From positions 1 to 37,876 of the forward strand of contig JAJRSX010000193.1 of NCBI GenBank assembly GCA_024278555.1: a DNA stretch of 37,876 nt, given 5' to 3'. The stretch comes from a bacterium. GTDB lineage: Bacteria > CG2-30-53-67 > CG2-30-70-394. Position 1 is the first letter of the stretch; each line of letters begins with the position of its first letter. A program made the translations under genes and the position numbers. The notes beneath the pieces are model-generated. The model saw only the letters and a program-made list of their open reading frames with translations. It was not told the DNA's origin and ran no database searches. Shown here in pieces: positions 12,781-37,876 of this stretch.

Positions 12781-12791
12781 TCCGCCCCACA

Positions 12792-12883
12792 CGGTGCGCC
12801 GCGCTGCCCTTGGCACACCCTACGGATCCATCCCCCGATCTCCCCGTTGCCGTAGGGTGTGCCAAGCGAAGCGCGGCGCACCG
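12792..12883. repeat. REP pair (inverted) after mutM
   Basis: The right unit (12850-12883) reads CCGTAGGGTGTGCCAAGCGA and ends GCGGCGCACCG. It has GTAG before a hairpin GGTGTGCC/GGCGCACC. The left unit (12792-12825) is its near-perfect inverse (CGGTGCGCCGCGCT...GGCACACCCTACGG). Together they can fold into one large stem or two small ones and could end mutM transcription. Confidence 0.85.
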
Positions 12884-12894
12884 ACTGAGGAGAA

Positions 12895-18031: not shown

Positions 18032-18523
18032 CTACAGACGGCCTCCTCGCGCCACCCCCCACCGGTGCAGGAGTACCGCCACCGCCTCGCCCACCAGGGG
18101 GGTCGGGTCGCCGCCGTGGGCGATCACCTCGCGCACCAAACGCGAGCAGACCCCGAGGTGGTCCGGCTCCGGGATGAGGAGGCAGGTGGGCACCGGCTCG
18201 GCGAGCAGCCGGTTGGTGAGGGCGAGCTGCATCTCCTGCTCTAGGTCGGCCGCGCCGCGCACCCCGCGCACCACGCAGCCGGCGCCGAGGTCGCCGACCA
18301 CGTCCACCTGCAGGCCGTCGAAGGCGACGCAGCGGACGTTGGCCAGCCCCGCCACCGCAGCGCTCGCCGCCTCCAGCCGCCGATCGAGGGTCAACAGCGG
18401 CCCCTTGCCGCTAGACGCGGCGACCGCCACCACCACCTCGTCAAAGAGGGTGGCCGCCTGCCTGGCGATGTCGCGGTGGCCGACGGTGAAGGGGTCGAAG
18501 GTTCCTGGGTAGAGGGCAAGCAT
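18032..18523 (-). CDS. coaD: Phosphopantetheine adenylyltransferase
   Basis: The 163-residue product has all family marks: ALYPGTFDPFTVGHRDI, the nucleotidyltransferase T/HxGH site, then RGVRGAADLEQEMQLALTNR for phosphopantetheine and ATP binding, and LVREVIAHGGD near the end. It joins ATP and 4'-phosphopantetheine to dephospho-CoA, the penultimate step of coenzyme A synthesis. Length is normal. The leader immediately before ATG 18523 is three and a half copies of a seven-base repeat (GACCGCT on the coding strand) and has no Shine-Dalgarno. Confidence 0.96.
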   Translation of the reverse strand: MLALYPGTFDPFTVGHRDIARQAATLFDEVVVAVAASSGKGPLLTLDRRLEAASAAVAGLANVRCVAFDGLQVDVVGDLGAGCVVRGVRGAADLEQEMQLALTNRLLAEPVPTCLLIPEPDHLGVCSRLVREVIAHGGDPTPLVGEAVAVLLHRWGVARGGRL

Positions 18524-18549
18524 AGCGGTCAGCGGTCAGCGGTCAGCGG
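18524..18549. repeat. AGCGGTC heptamer array in the coaD leader
   Basis: Three exact copies of AGCGGTC and most of a fourth abut the coaD start codon with no gap, so the coaD ribosome binding region is made of repeat units. Confidence 0.9.
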
Positions 18550-18684
18550 AAACAGCGTCGCCTCTCGGCAAGCGAAGCCCGAACGATCGTGCCACCGCAC
18601 CCCCCCCATTCTCCACCCGACACCCGCCCCCCTCCGCTGAGAGGATCAGCGGAAAATAGCAATGCAGGCCAAGATGGGACCGTC

Positions 18685-18710
18685 CGTAGGGCGGGCTTCA
18701 GCCCGCCGAG
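18685..18710 (+). repeat. REP palindrome
   Basis: CGTAGGGCGGGCTTCAGCCC then GCCGAG: GTAG before the stem GGCGGGCT/AGCCCGCC. A partner of opposite orientation lies at 19067-19090. Confidence 0.8.
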
Positions 18711-18769
18711 CACCGTAACTTCTTGAGAACTCCCTATCCCCTTGGCTCATGATGGGCAGCGTGGTTCGT

Positions 18770-18954
18770 AAGGGATTTTCACCACATAGACGCAGAGGGC
18801 ACAGAGAACTCCATCAGAAAACAACACGATTTTGCGCCGTCCTCTTGCACGACAACCCGGTGGCGATCCATTGCGAGGCCCAAGGGTGAGGAAAGCACCT
18901 CTCCTTTGCAGTTCTCTGTGCCCTCTGTGTCTCTGCGGTGAAATCGCCTTCCAG
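18770..18954 (+). repeat. 185-bp inverted-repeat element, copy A
   Basis: The left arm (TTCACCACATAGACGCAGAG, GGCACAGAGAACTCC) and right arm match at 31 of 35 positions by my count. Between them is a conserved core (ATCAGAAAACAACACGATTT ... GATCCATTGCGAGGC). Copies B (35893) and C (37693) share arms and core. No coding capacity was recognised; it looks like a non-autonomous mobile element or a structured RNA unit. Confidence 0.9.
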
Positions 18955-19066
18955 GCTTGCACCGTGATCACCTCGTGACTCCCTCGACCCGGTTGGCGGT
19001 CTCCCCTCCCCCCGGAATCCTGCCCTCTTTCCAATTGCCCATCGTCGGTCATGCGATGACGGCGTC

Positions 19067-19090
19067 GGTCGGCTGAAGCCGACCCTACGG
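19067..19090 (-). repeat. REP palindrome, inverted
   Basis: On the minus strand it reads CCGTAGGGTCGGCTTCAGCC then GACC: GTAG before the stem GGTCGGCT/AGCCGACC. It mirrors the REP at 18685 across element A. Confidence 0.8.
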
Positions 19091-19160
19091 TCCGGTAACC
19101 CCATCTTGTTTCCGCTGATCCTCTGAGAGCTGAAAGCTGTTCGCTGAAAGCTGACTCCCG

Positions 19161-20732
19161 TCAGCTCCCGAGCGCGGCCCGGCGTCCCCCGTGGGCGAGG
19201 CGGATCAGGGCGGGTACCGGGATCCACCGCTCGGCGACGATCCGATAGCCGCCGCCGTCGCCGATGAGGTAGATACGCTTTACGCCGTGGTCGTGGTGGC
19301 GGAGGGAGCTGTAGCCCTGGTCGAAGATGGCCACCGTCTGGCCGGCGGCGGCGAGGAGGGTAATCTCCCGCACCTCGATCCGGCGCGTCCCTTCCTCGGC
19401 AAAAAAGGCGCGCTTGCGGGCCAACCAGCGCAGCGCGGTGGTGTGGCCGAGACGGAAGAAGGCGTCGGCATAGCGGCCGCGGTACCGATCCCACGCCCCC
19501 TCCTGCCAGTCGCGACGCCAGCCGTCCAGCCAGGCGGTAATCTCCTCGGCGCGCGCCCGCGCCCGCGCCGGCGACAGCCAGGTAATCGCCGAGACCACCA
19601 CCAGCGGGGTGCGACGGGTGCGGATGTCGGCCGAGAGGGTCTCAAGGTCGGCGTTCGCCACCACGACGCAACCGCGTGAGTCGTCCGGGGTGGCGAGGCG
19701 GCCCGGGTCGTCGGTGCCGTGGAGCCAGATGCCGCCGCCGTCGCGGCCGGCGAGGCGGTCGAAGGAGTTGGGGTAGTCAGTGGGATACGCCATGGCGCCG
19801 TAGAGGGGCGGCAGCCCCTTCCCGTCGAGGTGGCGCTCCAAAAAGTAGACCCCCTCCGGGGTACGCAGGTCACCGCGCCGTCTCTTGCGGCCCGCCCGCT
19901 TGCCCACCACGCACCCCACCGTAGCCACCGCCACCGGACCGTCGGCGGTGCCGCGGAAGCGGTAGAGGCGGTGTGCCTGCTTGTCGACGAGTAGGACGTC
20001 GGGGGCGCCGGGGGGCAGACGGAGGATCGCCGCGGGCACGCGGCCTCCCTGGTCACCGGCCGCCTCCTCCGCGACCGGCGCCATCACCGCCGCTGGGCTG
20101 CCCGCCGCCACCTGCCGGGAGTGCGCCGCCGCCGGCCGGGGCAACGGTGGTGAGGCCCCCTTTGTGGGTGGCATGGGCCCCGGCGGGGGGGGCGTGGCGG
20201 CGCGCACCGCCGGGATGAGATCAGCGACCCCCGTCCGGGCGTGGGCCCGCCGGGCAAGCAGCGCCGCGAGGAAGCGCACCCGGCGGTCTTGAGAGGTGAC
20301 CCCGTCGCCGCCGAGGGTGGCAAAGAGGCGACGGTTCCTCTCCGCCTCCGGGTAGTCGGGCCGCAGGGCGACCGCCTCCGCGGCCGCCTTACCGGCGAGC
20401 CCCACCTCGCCGAGGCGCCACAGGAGCACGGCGACATTGTTCCACAAGACCGGATCGTCGGGGGTGACCGCCACCCCGCGGGTGTAGGCGACGAGCGCCC
20501 CGGCGAGGTCACCGGCGCGATAGGCGGCGGTCCCCTGCGCCCGCCACCCGGCGGCCCGCGCCCCCACCACGGTGAGCCCCAGGAAGAGCCCCGCAAGAAT
20601 CAACGGTAGGAGGGGGCCATGCCCCCGATCGGTGGACCACCGGGGGTCGGGTGGCGGCATGTGGCGCGCCTGCGGCACGCATCGGGGGCATGGCCCCCTC
20701 ACGCATCGGGGGCATGGCCCCCTCCTACTCAT
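19161..20732 (-). CDS. TPR / L,D-transpeptidase-family / NTF2-like envelope protein
   Basis: A 523-residue protein. Residues about 41-60 are a signal anchor, 62-140 TPR-like helices, 180-240 a Pro/Ala linker, 243-384 a YkuD catalytic domain with His338 in IWLHGT and Cys355 in SRGCVVV, and 392-508 an NTF2/SnoaL-like domain. YkuD enzymes act on peptidoglycan in the periplasm: 3-3 cross-linking, lipoprotein attachment, or, in DpaA/LdtF which also has an NTF2-like domain, detachment. Which applies here is unknown. The start overlaps the small TPR gene (ATGAGTAG), with AAGAGG six bases before it. Residues 2-42 are encoded by an inserted REP pair and look foreign (RGPCPRCVRGPCPRC). The internal ATG at residue 25 is an alternative start. 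Confidence 0.85.
   Translation of the reverse strand: MSRRGPCPRCVRGPCPRCVPQARHMPPPDPRWSTDRGHGPLLPLILAGLFLGLTVVGARAAGWRAQGTAAYRAGDLAGALVAYTRGVAVTPDDPVLWNNVAVLLWRLGEVGLAGKAAAEAVALRPDYPEAERNRRLFATLGGDGVTSQDRRVRFLAALLARRAHARTGVADLIPAVRAATPPPPGPMPPTKGASPPLPRPAAAHSRQVAAGSPAAVMAPVAEEAAGDQGGRVPAAILRLPPGAPDVLLVDKQAHRLYRFRGTADGPVAVATVGCVVGKRAGRKRRRGDLRTPEGVYFLERHLDGKGLPPLYGAMAYPTDYPNSFDRLAGRDGGGIWLHGTDDPGRLATPDDSRGCVVVANADLETLSADIRTRRTPLVVVSAITWLSPARARARAEEITAWLDGWRRDWQEGAWDRYRGRYADAFFRLGHTTALRWLARKRAFFAEEGTRRIEVREITLLAAAGQTVAIFDQGYSSLRHHDHGVKRIYLIGDGGGYRIVAERWIPVPALIRLAHGGRRAALGS
20606..20728. repeat. REP cluster inserted at the L,D-transpeptidase gene start
   Basis: One unit (20606 on, GTAGGAGGGGGCCATGCCCC) faces two inverted units (ATCGGGGGCATGGCCCCCTC, repeated, the last ending CTCCTAC at 20728). 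Each has GTAGGAG or its remnant next to the stem GGGGGC/GCCCCC. The insert is 123 bp, exactly 41 codons, in frame with the downstream gene, and its GTAG end supplies the stop of the gene before it. Confidence 0.88.
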
Positions 20733-21090
20733 CTTCATCCTCTTGGAGCTGGCGGGCCAACTCCAGGTAGACGTGGGCGAGGTTGTAGTGGGCCTCTTCG
20801 TAGTCGCGGTCGAGGTGCACCGCCACCTTGAGCTCGCGGGCGGCGACATCGTGGTGGCCGGCGCGATCGAAGACCACCCCGGCGTTGTTGTGGGCGATGG
20901 GGTTGTCCGGCGCCGCCTGGATTGCCTGGCGGGCGGTCTTCAAGGCGGTGTCGAGGTGGCCCGCATCGAGCTCACGGACGCAGCGGACGAGGAGCGCACT
21001 CACCCCCTCCGGCCCTGCCGCGCCCACCCGCACCGCCACCGTCGCGACGACCAGTGCACCGCCGACGATCCCCACCAGTCGCCACTTCAC
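20725..21090 (-). CDS. Small TPR protein with signal anchor
   Basis: A 121-residue protein that begins (GTG) MKWRLVGIVGGALVVATVAV, a single hydrophobic segment. About two and a half tetratricopeptide repeats follow (LDTALKTARQAIQAAPDNPI, AHNNAGVVFDRAGHHDVAAR, then AHYNLAHVYLELARQLQ), and the tail is acidic (EDEDE). TPRs are protein-binding scaffolds. GTG 21090 overlaps the stop of the upstream TPR/NTF2 gene (GTGA), and its own stop overlaps the L,D-transpeptidase start, so the three are translationally coupled and probably form one periplasmic complex. The TAG stop lies in the GTAGGAG end of an inserted REP. Confidence 0.82.
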   Translation of the reverse strand: MKWRLVGIVGGALVVATVAVRVGAAGPEGVSALLVRCVRELDAGHLDTALKTARQAIQAAPDNPIAHNNAGVVFDRAGHHDVAARELKVAVHLDRDYEEAHYNLAHVYLELARQLQEDEDE

Positions 21091-29164: not shown

Positions 29165-29376
29165 CTTACCACGGGGGACACGGGGGGGCGTGGGGGGCAA
29201 GTCACGGTTGCTGCCTATCGAGAGGTGTGGAGGCTTCCGCGGTCTCCGGACGACTGTTTGCAGTGATCGACAGGTCCATAGGTCTCGACCGGTAGGACCG
29301 CCCGTGCGGTGGTGGTGCGGAGGAGCCACCGGATGGCCCTTGCCCCTCACGCCCCCCCGTGTCCCCCGTGGTGAAC
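29165..29376. repeat. CAC-type inverted-repeat element with a GGGG arm
   Basis: Arms ACCACGGGGGACACGGGGGG, GCGTGGGGGGCAAG (left, to 29201) and its inverse (29339-29376) agree at 33 of 34 positions. A REP-like GTAGGACCGCCCGTGCGGT lies inside (29292-29310). It fills the gap between the converging mtnA and M48 genes and ends one base before the M48 stop codon. The same CAC rhythm as the 185-bp element is seen, with G replacing the A/G positions. Confidence 0.88.
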
Positions 29377-32427: not shown

Positions 32428-32709
32428 GTGGCCGAGCCTTGCCCCCGCCACCGCCCCATCGGCCCGAGCGCATCCAAGCGAAGCCGGATGGCTTCGCTTC
32501 GGAACGAAGCGCTGCCTTCACCGCCTGCTTCTCTCTTTCTGGAGAAACTCCCTTCCTAAGAAACTCCCTTCCTACTCCTCTCTCTCATCTCGTCCTCCCT
32601 AACCACCCACCGCTGCCGCCCTTGACGAGGGGTCACTCCATATCAGGTCATGAAGGGTCGGGATCACGACTCTTCGAGGAGCAGCGGAAATAATGTTCGG
32701 GCGGTTTGC

Positions 32710-35571: not shown

Positions 35572-36146
35572 CGTCGGTCCATCCGTCGAGGGCGGAGCGC
35601 GCTCCGCCGAAGATCCAACAAGCCATCTCACCTCTCGCCCACCGCGCGAGCACGACGCAGGGTGAGCGACCGCCGCCACCGGGGACAAGCCCCCGGAATC
35701 GTCGGCTCCAGCTGCTGTCCTCCAGACAAAACCCCTTCCCCCGGATAAAACCACGAAGGACACCCCGTTCACCGGCGCGCCCGCCTGCCTCGGAGGAGCC
35801 CCCCCCCACCCGGTGATCCGTCTCCTCACCCTTCCTGGCCCACGCGGTGTGCCGTTCATCCTTTGGAAACAAGCCGTTTCCAGAGCGCTCCCGGAAGGGA
35901 TTTTTCACTACAGAGACACAGAGAGCACAGAGAACTCCAAAGGAAAGGTGCTTTCCTCCTCTCAGGCCTCGCAATGGATCGCCACGGGGTTGCCGTGCAG
36001 GAGGACGGCGCAAAATCGTGTTGTTTTCTGATGGCGTTCTCTGTGCCCTCTGTGTCTCTGTAGTGAAATTTCCTTCCAGGCTGCTGCATAGCGATTGGGG
36101 GCACCGGTGACACATCACCCTCCCTGCCGACGATCCGTGCCTCCCC
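35572..36146. other. Repeat-rich spacer upstream of trpG
   Basis: No gene is recognised in this 575-bp gap between trpG and the cutA remnant. Near 35743-35768 is a one-sided CAC-type arm (AAAACCACGAAGGACACC) in a context (CAGACAAAACC) similar to 5750-5775. Copy B of the 185-bp element occupies 35893-36077. The trpG promoter should lie in the remaining 35572-35890, but I see no clear hexamers. Confidence 0.6.
35893..36077 (-). repeat. 185-bp inverted-repeat element, copy B (opposite orientation)
   Basis: Arms TTTCACTACAGAGACACAGA, GAGCACAGAGAAC and their inverse agree at 32 of 33 positions. The core is the reverse complement of copy A (CAAAATCGTGTTGTTTTCTG here). Outer flanks GGAAGGGATTT and AAATTTCCTTCC extend the inverted repeat to about 45 bp. 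The length equals copy A exactly. Confidence 0.92.
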
Positions 36147-37692: not shown

Positions 37693-37876
37693 ATGGGGTT
37701 CACCGCAGAGACGCGAAGGACGCAGAGAACTCCATCAGAAAACAGCGCGATCTTGCGCCGCCCTCTCGCGCGGCAACCCCGTGACGATCCATTGCGAGGC
37801 CCAAGAGGAGGAACGGACCTCTCCTTTGCAGTTCTCTGTGTCCTCTGTGCTCTCCTTTGCTTGTGGGCTCCGAGCC
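37693..37876 (+). repeat. 185-bp inverted-repeat element, copy C (at window edge)
   Basis: Same orientation as copy A. The left arm reads TTCACCGCAGAGACGCGAAG, GACGCAGAGAACTCC; the core has ATCAGAAAACAGCGCGATCT and GATCCATTGCGAGGCCCAAG; the right arm GTTCTCTGTGTCCTCTGTG degrades after about 37850. It abuts the upstream region of the CPBP-type gene, 83 bp from its start. Confidence 0.88.

Follow-up and report, generated by a model that had tools for sequence, protein, structure and literature searches.

The window analysed here, a bacterial stretch of 37,876 bp, contains a 637-bp spacer (18524-19160) between coaD and an L,D-transpeptidase-like gene, both named after a first-pass annotation made from the sequence alone. 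That annotation described four concentrically nested repeat families in the spacer, namely inverted heptamers, an inverted GAGGATC segment, an inverted REP pair and Element A. All of the named sequences are present, but the number of real layers is three: an outer element, an inner element termed MITE-I, and Element A. The GAGGATC and REP sequences constitute one arm, the heptamers are no layer, and MITE-I, a complete mobile element lying between the outer arms and Element A, had been missed. The features of the locus are as follows.

18032..18523, minus strand: coaD; the orthologue in the sister species is 80% identical at the protein level
18524..18549: heptamer repeats (AGCGGTC)n adjoining the coaD start; flanking, outside the mobile unit
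18638..18640: left 3-bp target-site duplication, TGA
18641..19123 (483 bp): composite non-autonomous element, termini GAGGATCAGCGGAAA / TTTCCGCTGATCCTC; full-length copies elsewhere
18641..18719, plus strand: left outer arm (15-bp terminal repeat, AAGATGGG and REP-like hairpin at 18684-18709)
18720..18728: TTCTTGAGA, left copy of the 9-bp duplication from MITE-I entry into the outer element
18729..19053, plus strand: MITE-I, the inner element, truncated at its 3' end and aligning with the free copy at C207 over 18729-18762 and 18766-19053
18770..18950: Element A, inside MITE-I, with 44-nt inverted arms (18770-18813 / 18907-18950)
19056..19123, minus strand: right outer arm (REP-like hairpin at 19065-19090 and terminal repeat at 19109-19123)
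19124..19126: right 3-bp target-site duplication, TGA
19127..19153: GCTGAAA-type heptamers past the right end; flanking sequence
19161..20849, minus strand: L,D-transpeptidase-like gene, upstream of coaD

The inverted matches comprise CTGAGAGGATCAGCGGAAA at the two ends (18637-18655 / 19109-19127; 19 nt, 95%), the REP-like arms (26 nt, 85%) and the Element A arms (44 nt, 84%). The symmetry about the centre is far beyond chance, as the highest-scoring ungapped inverted match within the 637-bp spacer reached 25, while 60 dinucleotide shuffles averaged 10.2 and never exceeded 16. Fold prediction, which had been proposed as a check, gave z = -9.7 for the 483-nt strand, and none of 100 shuffles was equally stable.

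Ends, copies and target-site duplications of the outer element

Positions 18637-19129 were used to search the genome from which the window comes (211 contigs, 3.06 Mb in total). Besides the window copy, full-length copies were found at C152:6772-7284 (89% identity) and C66:3635-4139 (82%), together with many partial copies, often at contig ends. Both full-length copies retain the layered order of the window, as the first-pass annotation had suggested should be looked for at other loci. On alignment, the three sequences correspond over the stretch running from GAGGATCAGCGG through CCGCTGATCCTC; immediately outside it they diverge, their flanks being unrelated. With two other full-length loci between unrelated flanks, and about 25 5' ends and 22 3' ends in the genome, the composite is a unit with defined ends, which moved as a whole after nesting and travelled without the heptamers.

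The heptamers were considered separately as a layer of the unit and rejected, as the inverted heptamer frame is absent around both other full-length copies. The motif lies within 40 bp of only 8 of the 111 element ends, although this is an enrichment over the 0.45% of background 40-mers.

Sites matching GAGGATCAGCGGAAA with at most one mismatch numbered 107 in the genome, versus one for the reversed control. The ends in the genome stretches examined were assigned to the composite (25 at 5' and 22 at 3'), to a separate 197-bp MITE family bearing the same ends as the outer element (27 + 24), and to insertion sequences (9). A lone end of the 197-bp family, GAGGAGCAGCGGAAATAATG, lies at 32676-32690 in the window with no partner and represents a truncated copy.

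An exact 3-bp direct repeat flanks 15 of the 30 two-ended elements and is absent from the other half; 3.7 were expected by shuffled pairing, and none of 20,000 shuffles reached 15. The window copy, with TGA on both sides, belongs to the duplicated half. Besides this target-site duplication, the composite has the other hallmarks of a MITE: (i) it is short and contains only an overlapping 101-aa frame and a passing 226-aa minus-strand frame, inspection of which revealed no transposase, and (ii) it has terminal inverted repeats and dispersed copies between unrelated flanks.

Sub-families could be recognized among the copies. Those at C53, C77, C121 and C19 carry up to 112 bp extra before Element A, which the window, C152 and C66 copies do not have; relative to the C53 long form, the window MITE-I is short of 112 bp at 18769/18770. 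The left REP region was lost in C124, C46, C114, C16, C24, C51 and others, in which the outer end is nevertheless retained at unrelated sites. The composite continued to move after the nest was formed.

Nesting, mobilisation and history of the composite

MITE-I also occurs free. The copy at C207:8883-9341 is bounded by the 9-bp duplication ATTGCCCTA and that at C15 by ATCCCCCAA (9/9), and those at C169 and C157 have duplications matching at 8 of 9 positions. No 9-bp duplication was found around the complete free copies at C146 and C171, nor one directly adjacent to the MITE-I at C48. In the intact composites, TTCTTGAGA lies directly left and again directly right of MITE-I, with substitutions in some copies. 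The junction between the outer element and MITE-I was found in 11 copies on the left and 22 on the right, and all 11 left junctions adjoin the outer terminal repeat. These data are most simply read as a single insertion of MITE-I into the outer element, followed by amplification. Since the identical nested junction recurs at many unrelated loci, the nesting was not local to the coaD spacer. The nesting history is unreadable from the window alone, because a 25-bp deletion near 19054 removed the right-hand TTCTTGAGA. Of the partial-layer states, MITE-I alone and MITE-I lacking Element A both exist, but no outer element lacking MITE-I was found in the genome stretches examined. No partner transposase was identified for MITE-I.

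As for the outer ends, elements of 529 bp and 517 bp (C116 and C129) and several contig-end pieces bearing the same ends are insertion-sequence remnants. Transposase fragments match the IS1182-family transposase model NF033551: the frames at C205 and C61 correspond to its N- and C-terminal parts, respectively (E = 5e-30 and 1e-26), and the latter also matches a DDE domain in Pfam. No NF033551 match in the genome lies above the NCBIfam family cut-off, and this genome yielded no intact, full-length IS1182-type gene bearing these ends, the matches being fragments, several of them at contig ends, perhaps owing to assembly breaks at repeats; the role of the family is thus one that we infer from the shared ends. 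An IS1182-family insertion sequence was likely the source of the transposase acting on the outer ends. The locus of the longest IS1182 match (C65) in this genome lacks an end of this type.

We consider it highly probable that the spacer holds a nested, non-autonomous transposable element, that is, a composite MITE, with the following history. (a) The ancestor, which we infer to have existed free, would have been a short palindrome, ~150 bp long, whose ends were of the IS1182 type (GAGGATCAGCGGAAA) and whose two arms each held a REP-like hairpin. (b) MITE-I (ends ACTGCCTATCC..., 9-bp duplication), built round Element A, would have inserted at TTCTTGAGA, in the middle of the outer element. (c) A transposase, probably of the IS1182 family, would then have acted in trans on the outer ends and mobilised the entire nest, with a 3-bp target duplication, giving some two dozen copies or more. 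(d) The sub-families, one of which includes the window copy, would have arisen by internal deletion. (e) Once the lineage had separated from that of the sister species, one copy would have inserted at TGA in the spacer that lies between coaD and the L,D-transpeptidase gene. Steps (b), (d) and (e), as well as the dispersal in (c), are recorded in the sequence itself. A single genome suffices to put these events in order, because each of the two outer layers has its own duplication size (3 bp for the outer, 9 bp for the inner) and the inner element is also found in free states. Of the alternatives put forward in the first-pass annotation, namely insertion within earlier palindromes at their middle and movement of a composite as a whole, both hold, with nesting first: MITE-I entered the centre of the outer element with a 9-bp duplication, a size also seen at free copies, and the composite dispersed between unrelated flanks with 3-bp duplications of its own.

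Regarding step (e), only 47 bp separate the L,D-transpeptidase gene from coaD in the sister species, the only same-genus genome found, and no copy of the outer end motif was found in that genome. Read most simply, the composite reached the coaD spacer once the two species had diverged. Among 20 relatives in which the composite was sought, only A-arm matches were obtained, and a 19-mer search of contigs from GTDB genomes, a set in which the genome under study may be missing, gave three stray matches. No copy outside this genome therefore dates the nest.

Three other explanations were weighed against the composite MITE. The layers could have been assembled at the coaD spacer itself, each inserting independently into the centre of the previous one, if palindromes attract insertions. 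The layers are indeed nested and roughly concentric, with MITE-I inserted at the outer element's centre. Nevertheless, the nest recurs with this junction at many unrelated loci, and outer elements lie within palindromes no more than expected from shuffled pairings (mean flank complementarity 4.73 versus 4.57, 574/2000, 30 elements), so that we regard stepwise assembly at this locus as very improbable. The outer element was thus rejected as a general inserter into palindromes, with one clear case of it lying within a palindrome (C78). In a broader version of the idea, the centres of such elements, i.e., hairpin loops, may be favoured landing sites in this genome, so that palindromic MITEs would keep nesting and the nests propagate as a self-elaborating Russian-doll lineage. 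The landing site of MITE-I is a few bases from the centre of the outer palindrome, and Element A lies near the middle of MITE-I. The inner steps amount to one or two events, however, and the outer element's own landing sites display no such preference; we hold this idea to be rather unlikely.

Alternatively, the inverted REP pair could be the mobile part, moved like a REPIN by a RAYT (Y1 tyrosine transposase) with the remainder as a passenger. The two REP-like hairpins are in inverted orientation, and RAYT candidates exist, as four PF01797 (Y1_Tnp) matches were found in the genome. Of the 35 matches to the REP-like motif in the genome, 34 were re-found in the stretches examined; 33 of these lie within 50 bp of an outer (GAGGATC) terminal repeat, and the remaining one runs off a contig end. 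The REP-like copies thus sit in such arms, so that the two supposed layers, GAGGATC and REP, make up a single imperfect arm, and neither free REPs nor REP pairs forming units of their own were seen in these stretches. Moreover, the ends carrying the 3-bp duplications are 43 bp (left) and 33 bp (right) outside the REP hairpin, the sub-families without the left REP retain the outer end at unrelated sites, and near the RAYT genes only weak matches to the end motif (4 mismatches) were found. Movement by a RAYT is accordingly hard to credit. Little can likewise be said for a structured regulatory RNA or attenuator retained between the two genes for the control of coaD. The strong fold (z = -9.7) and the position directly upstream of coaD agree with such a role, but palindromic MITEs fold strongly by nature, the element is absent from the sister species and so is unconserved at the locus, its copies elsewhere lie between unrelated flanks, and no promoter or terminator consensus was found in the spacer. 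We thus favour the composite MITE, for which nothing points to a host function; an effect of the element on transcription into coaD is possible. The four Y1/RAYT transposase genes (C27, C70, C170 and C185; L089-L092) have no obvious link to the REP-like arms.

Comparison with known mobile repeats

MITEs of the IS1182 family are known from Methanosarcina acetivorans, in which ISMac2-related elements of 160-169 bp have been described (PMC3852290). Like the composite, they are gene-less, occur in multiple copies and have short terminal repeats matching IS1182-family insertion sequences, and target duplications are short or absent in both cases (4 or 0 bp in the ISMac2-related MITEs, PMC3852290; 3 bp here). 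In contrast, the composite is ~480-600 bp long and carries a second complete MITE, and no intact partner was found. IS1272, another member of the IS1182 family, targets and replaces inverted repeats with no duplication (PMC5678879). It shares the transposase family with the likely mover of the composite, whereas the composite displays 3-bp duplications and no preference for palindromes; inverted-repeat replacement of the IS1272 type was not seen here, and it is known as a trait of one member rather than as a defining feature of the family.

The pneumococcal BOX, RUP and SPRITE repeats insert into one another (PMC3049150), and thus resemble the present case in being small palindromic repeats lying within each other with modular sub-families. 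Here, unlike in those repeats, the nest spread as a single unit under the outer ends, and both sets of duplications are readable. With the REP/REPIN systems of RAYTs the composite has in common an inverted pair of REP-like hairpins; the difference is that the hairpins were never free in the stretches examined and belong to arms whose ends are of the IS1182 type. Both Russian-doll nesting among prokaryotic elements and IS1182-related MITEs are already in the literature (PMC3852290), and the composite is a well-preserved case of this known kind of bacterial mobile DNA rather than a new kind of system. Less usual, as far as the open-access literature goes, is a nest with both duplication sets readable that then multiplied as one unit. 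Large modular MITEs of bacteria can thus form by nesting and subsequent trans-mobilisation, besides the internal deletion of an insertion sequence, and seeming "REP pairs" can be the arms of an IS-derived MITE.

Element A and other repeats in the window

In the MITE-I lacking Element A (C171:30557-30850), GGGGAAAT is joined directly to GGCC, and in other copies the sequence TCACCAC...GTGGTGAAAT lies between the two. The C171 copy may represent the state before the arrival of Element A, or a later deletion across a GAAAT repeat. Copies of Element A alone are found in the window at 35890-36075 and 37699-37854. The latter, followed along 37699-37876, breaks at ~37854 into TTTGCTTGTGGGCTCCGAGCC, and the contig ends there. 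In C16, C24 and C51 the reverse complement of TTTGCTTGTGGGCTCCGAGCC adjoins A fragments, ahead of a possible start, ATGAAGCAGGCT; the break has the look of another insertion into Element A.

At C128:7526-7661 and C160:17784-17923, the core of Element A has the opposite orientation to that seen elsewhere, as recombination between the A arms could have brought about. The sister species has A-type arms (ACCACAGAGACACAGAGG...) as well, and so do three further genomes of the class (L093-L101); A-type sequence is therefore wider than the composite. Strong inverted repeats at 12785-12890 (41 nt at 88%) and 20606-20728 (29 nt at 93%) are by inspection unrelated to the composite. The window also contains, at 29168-29372, a 34-nt inverted repeat in G-rich sequence, the arms of which are 97% complementary and 137 nt apart.
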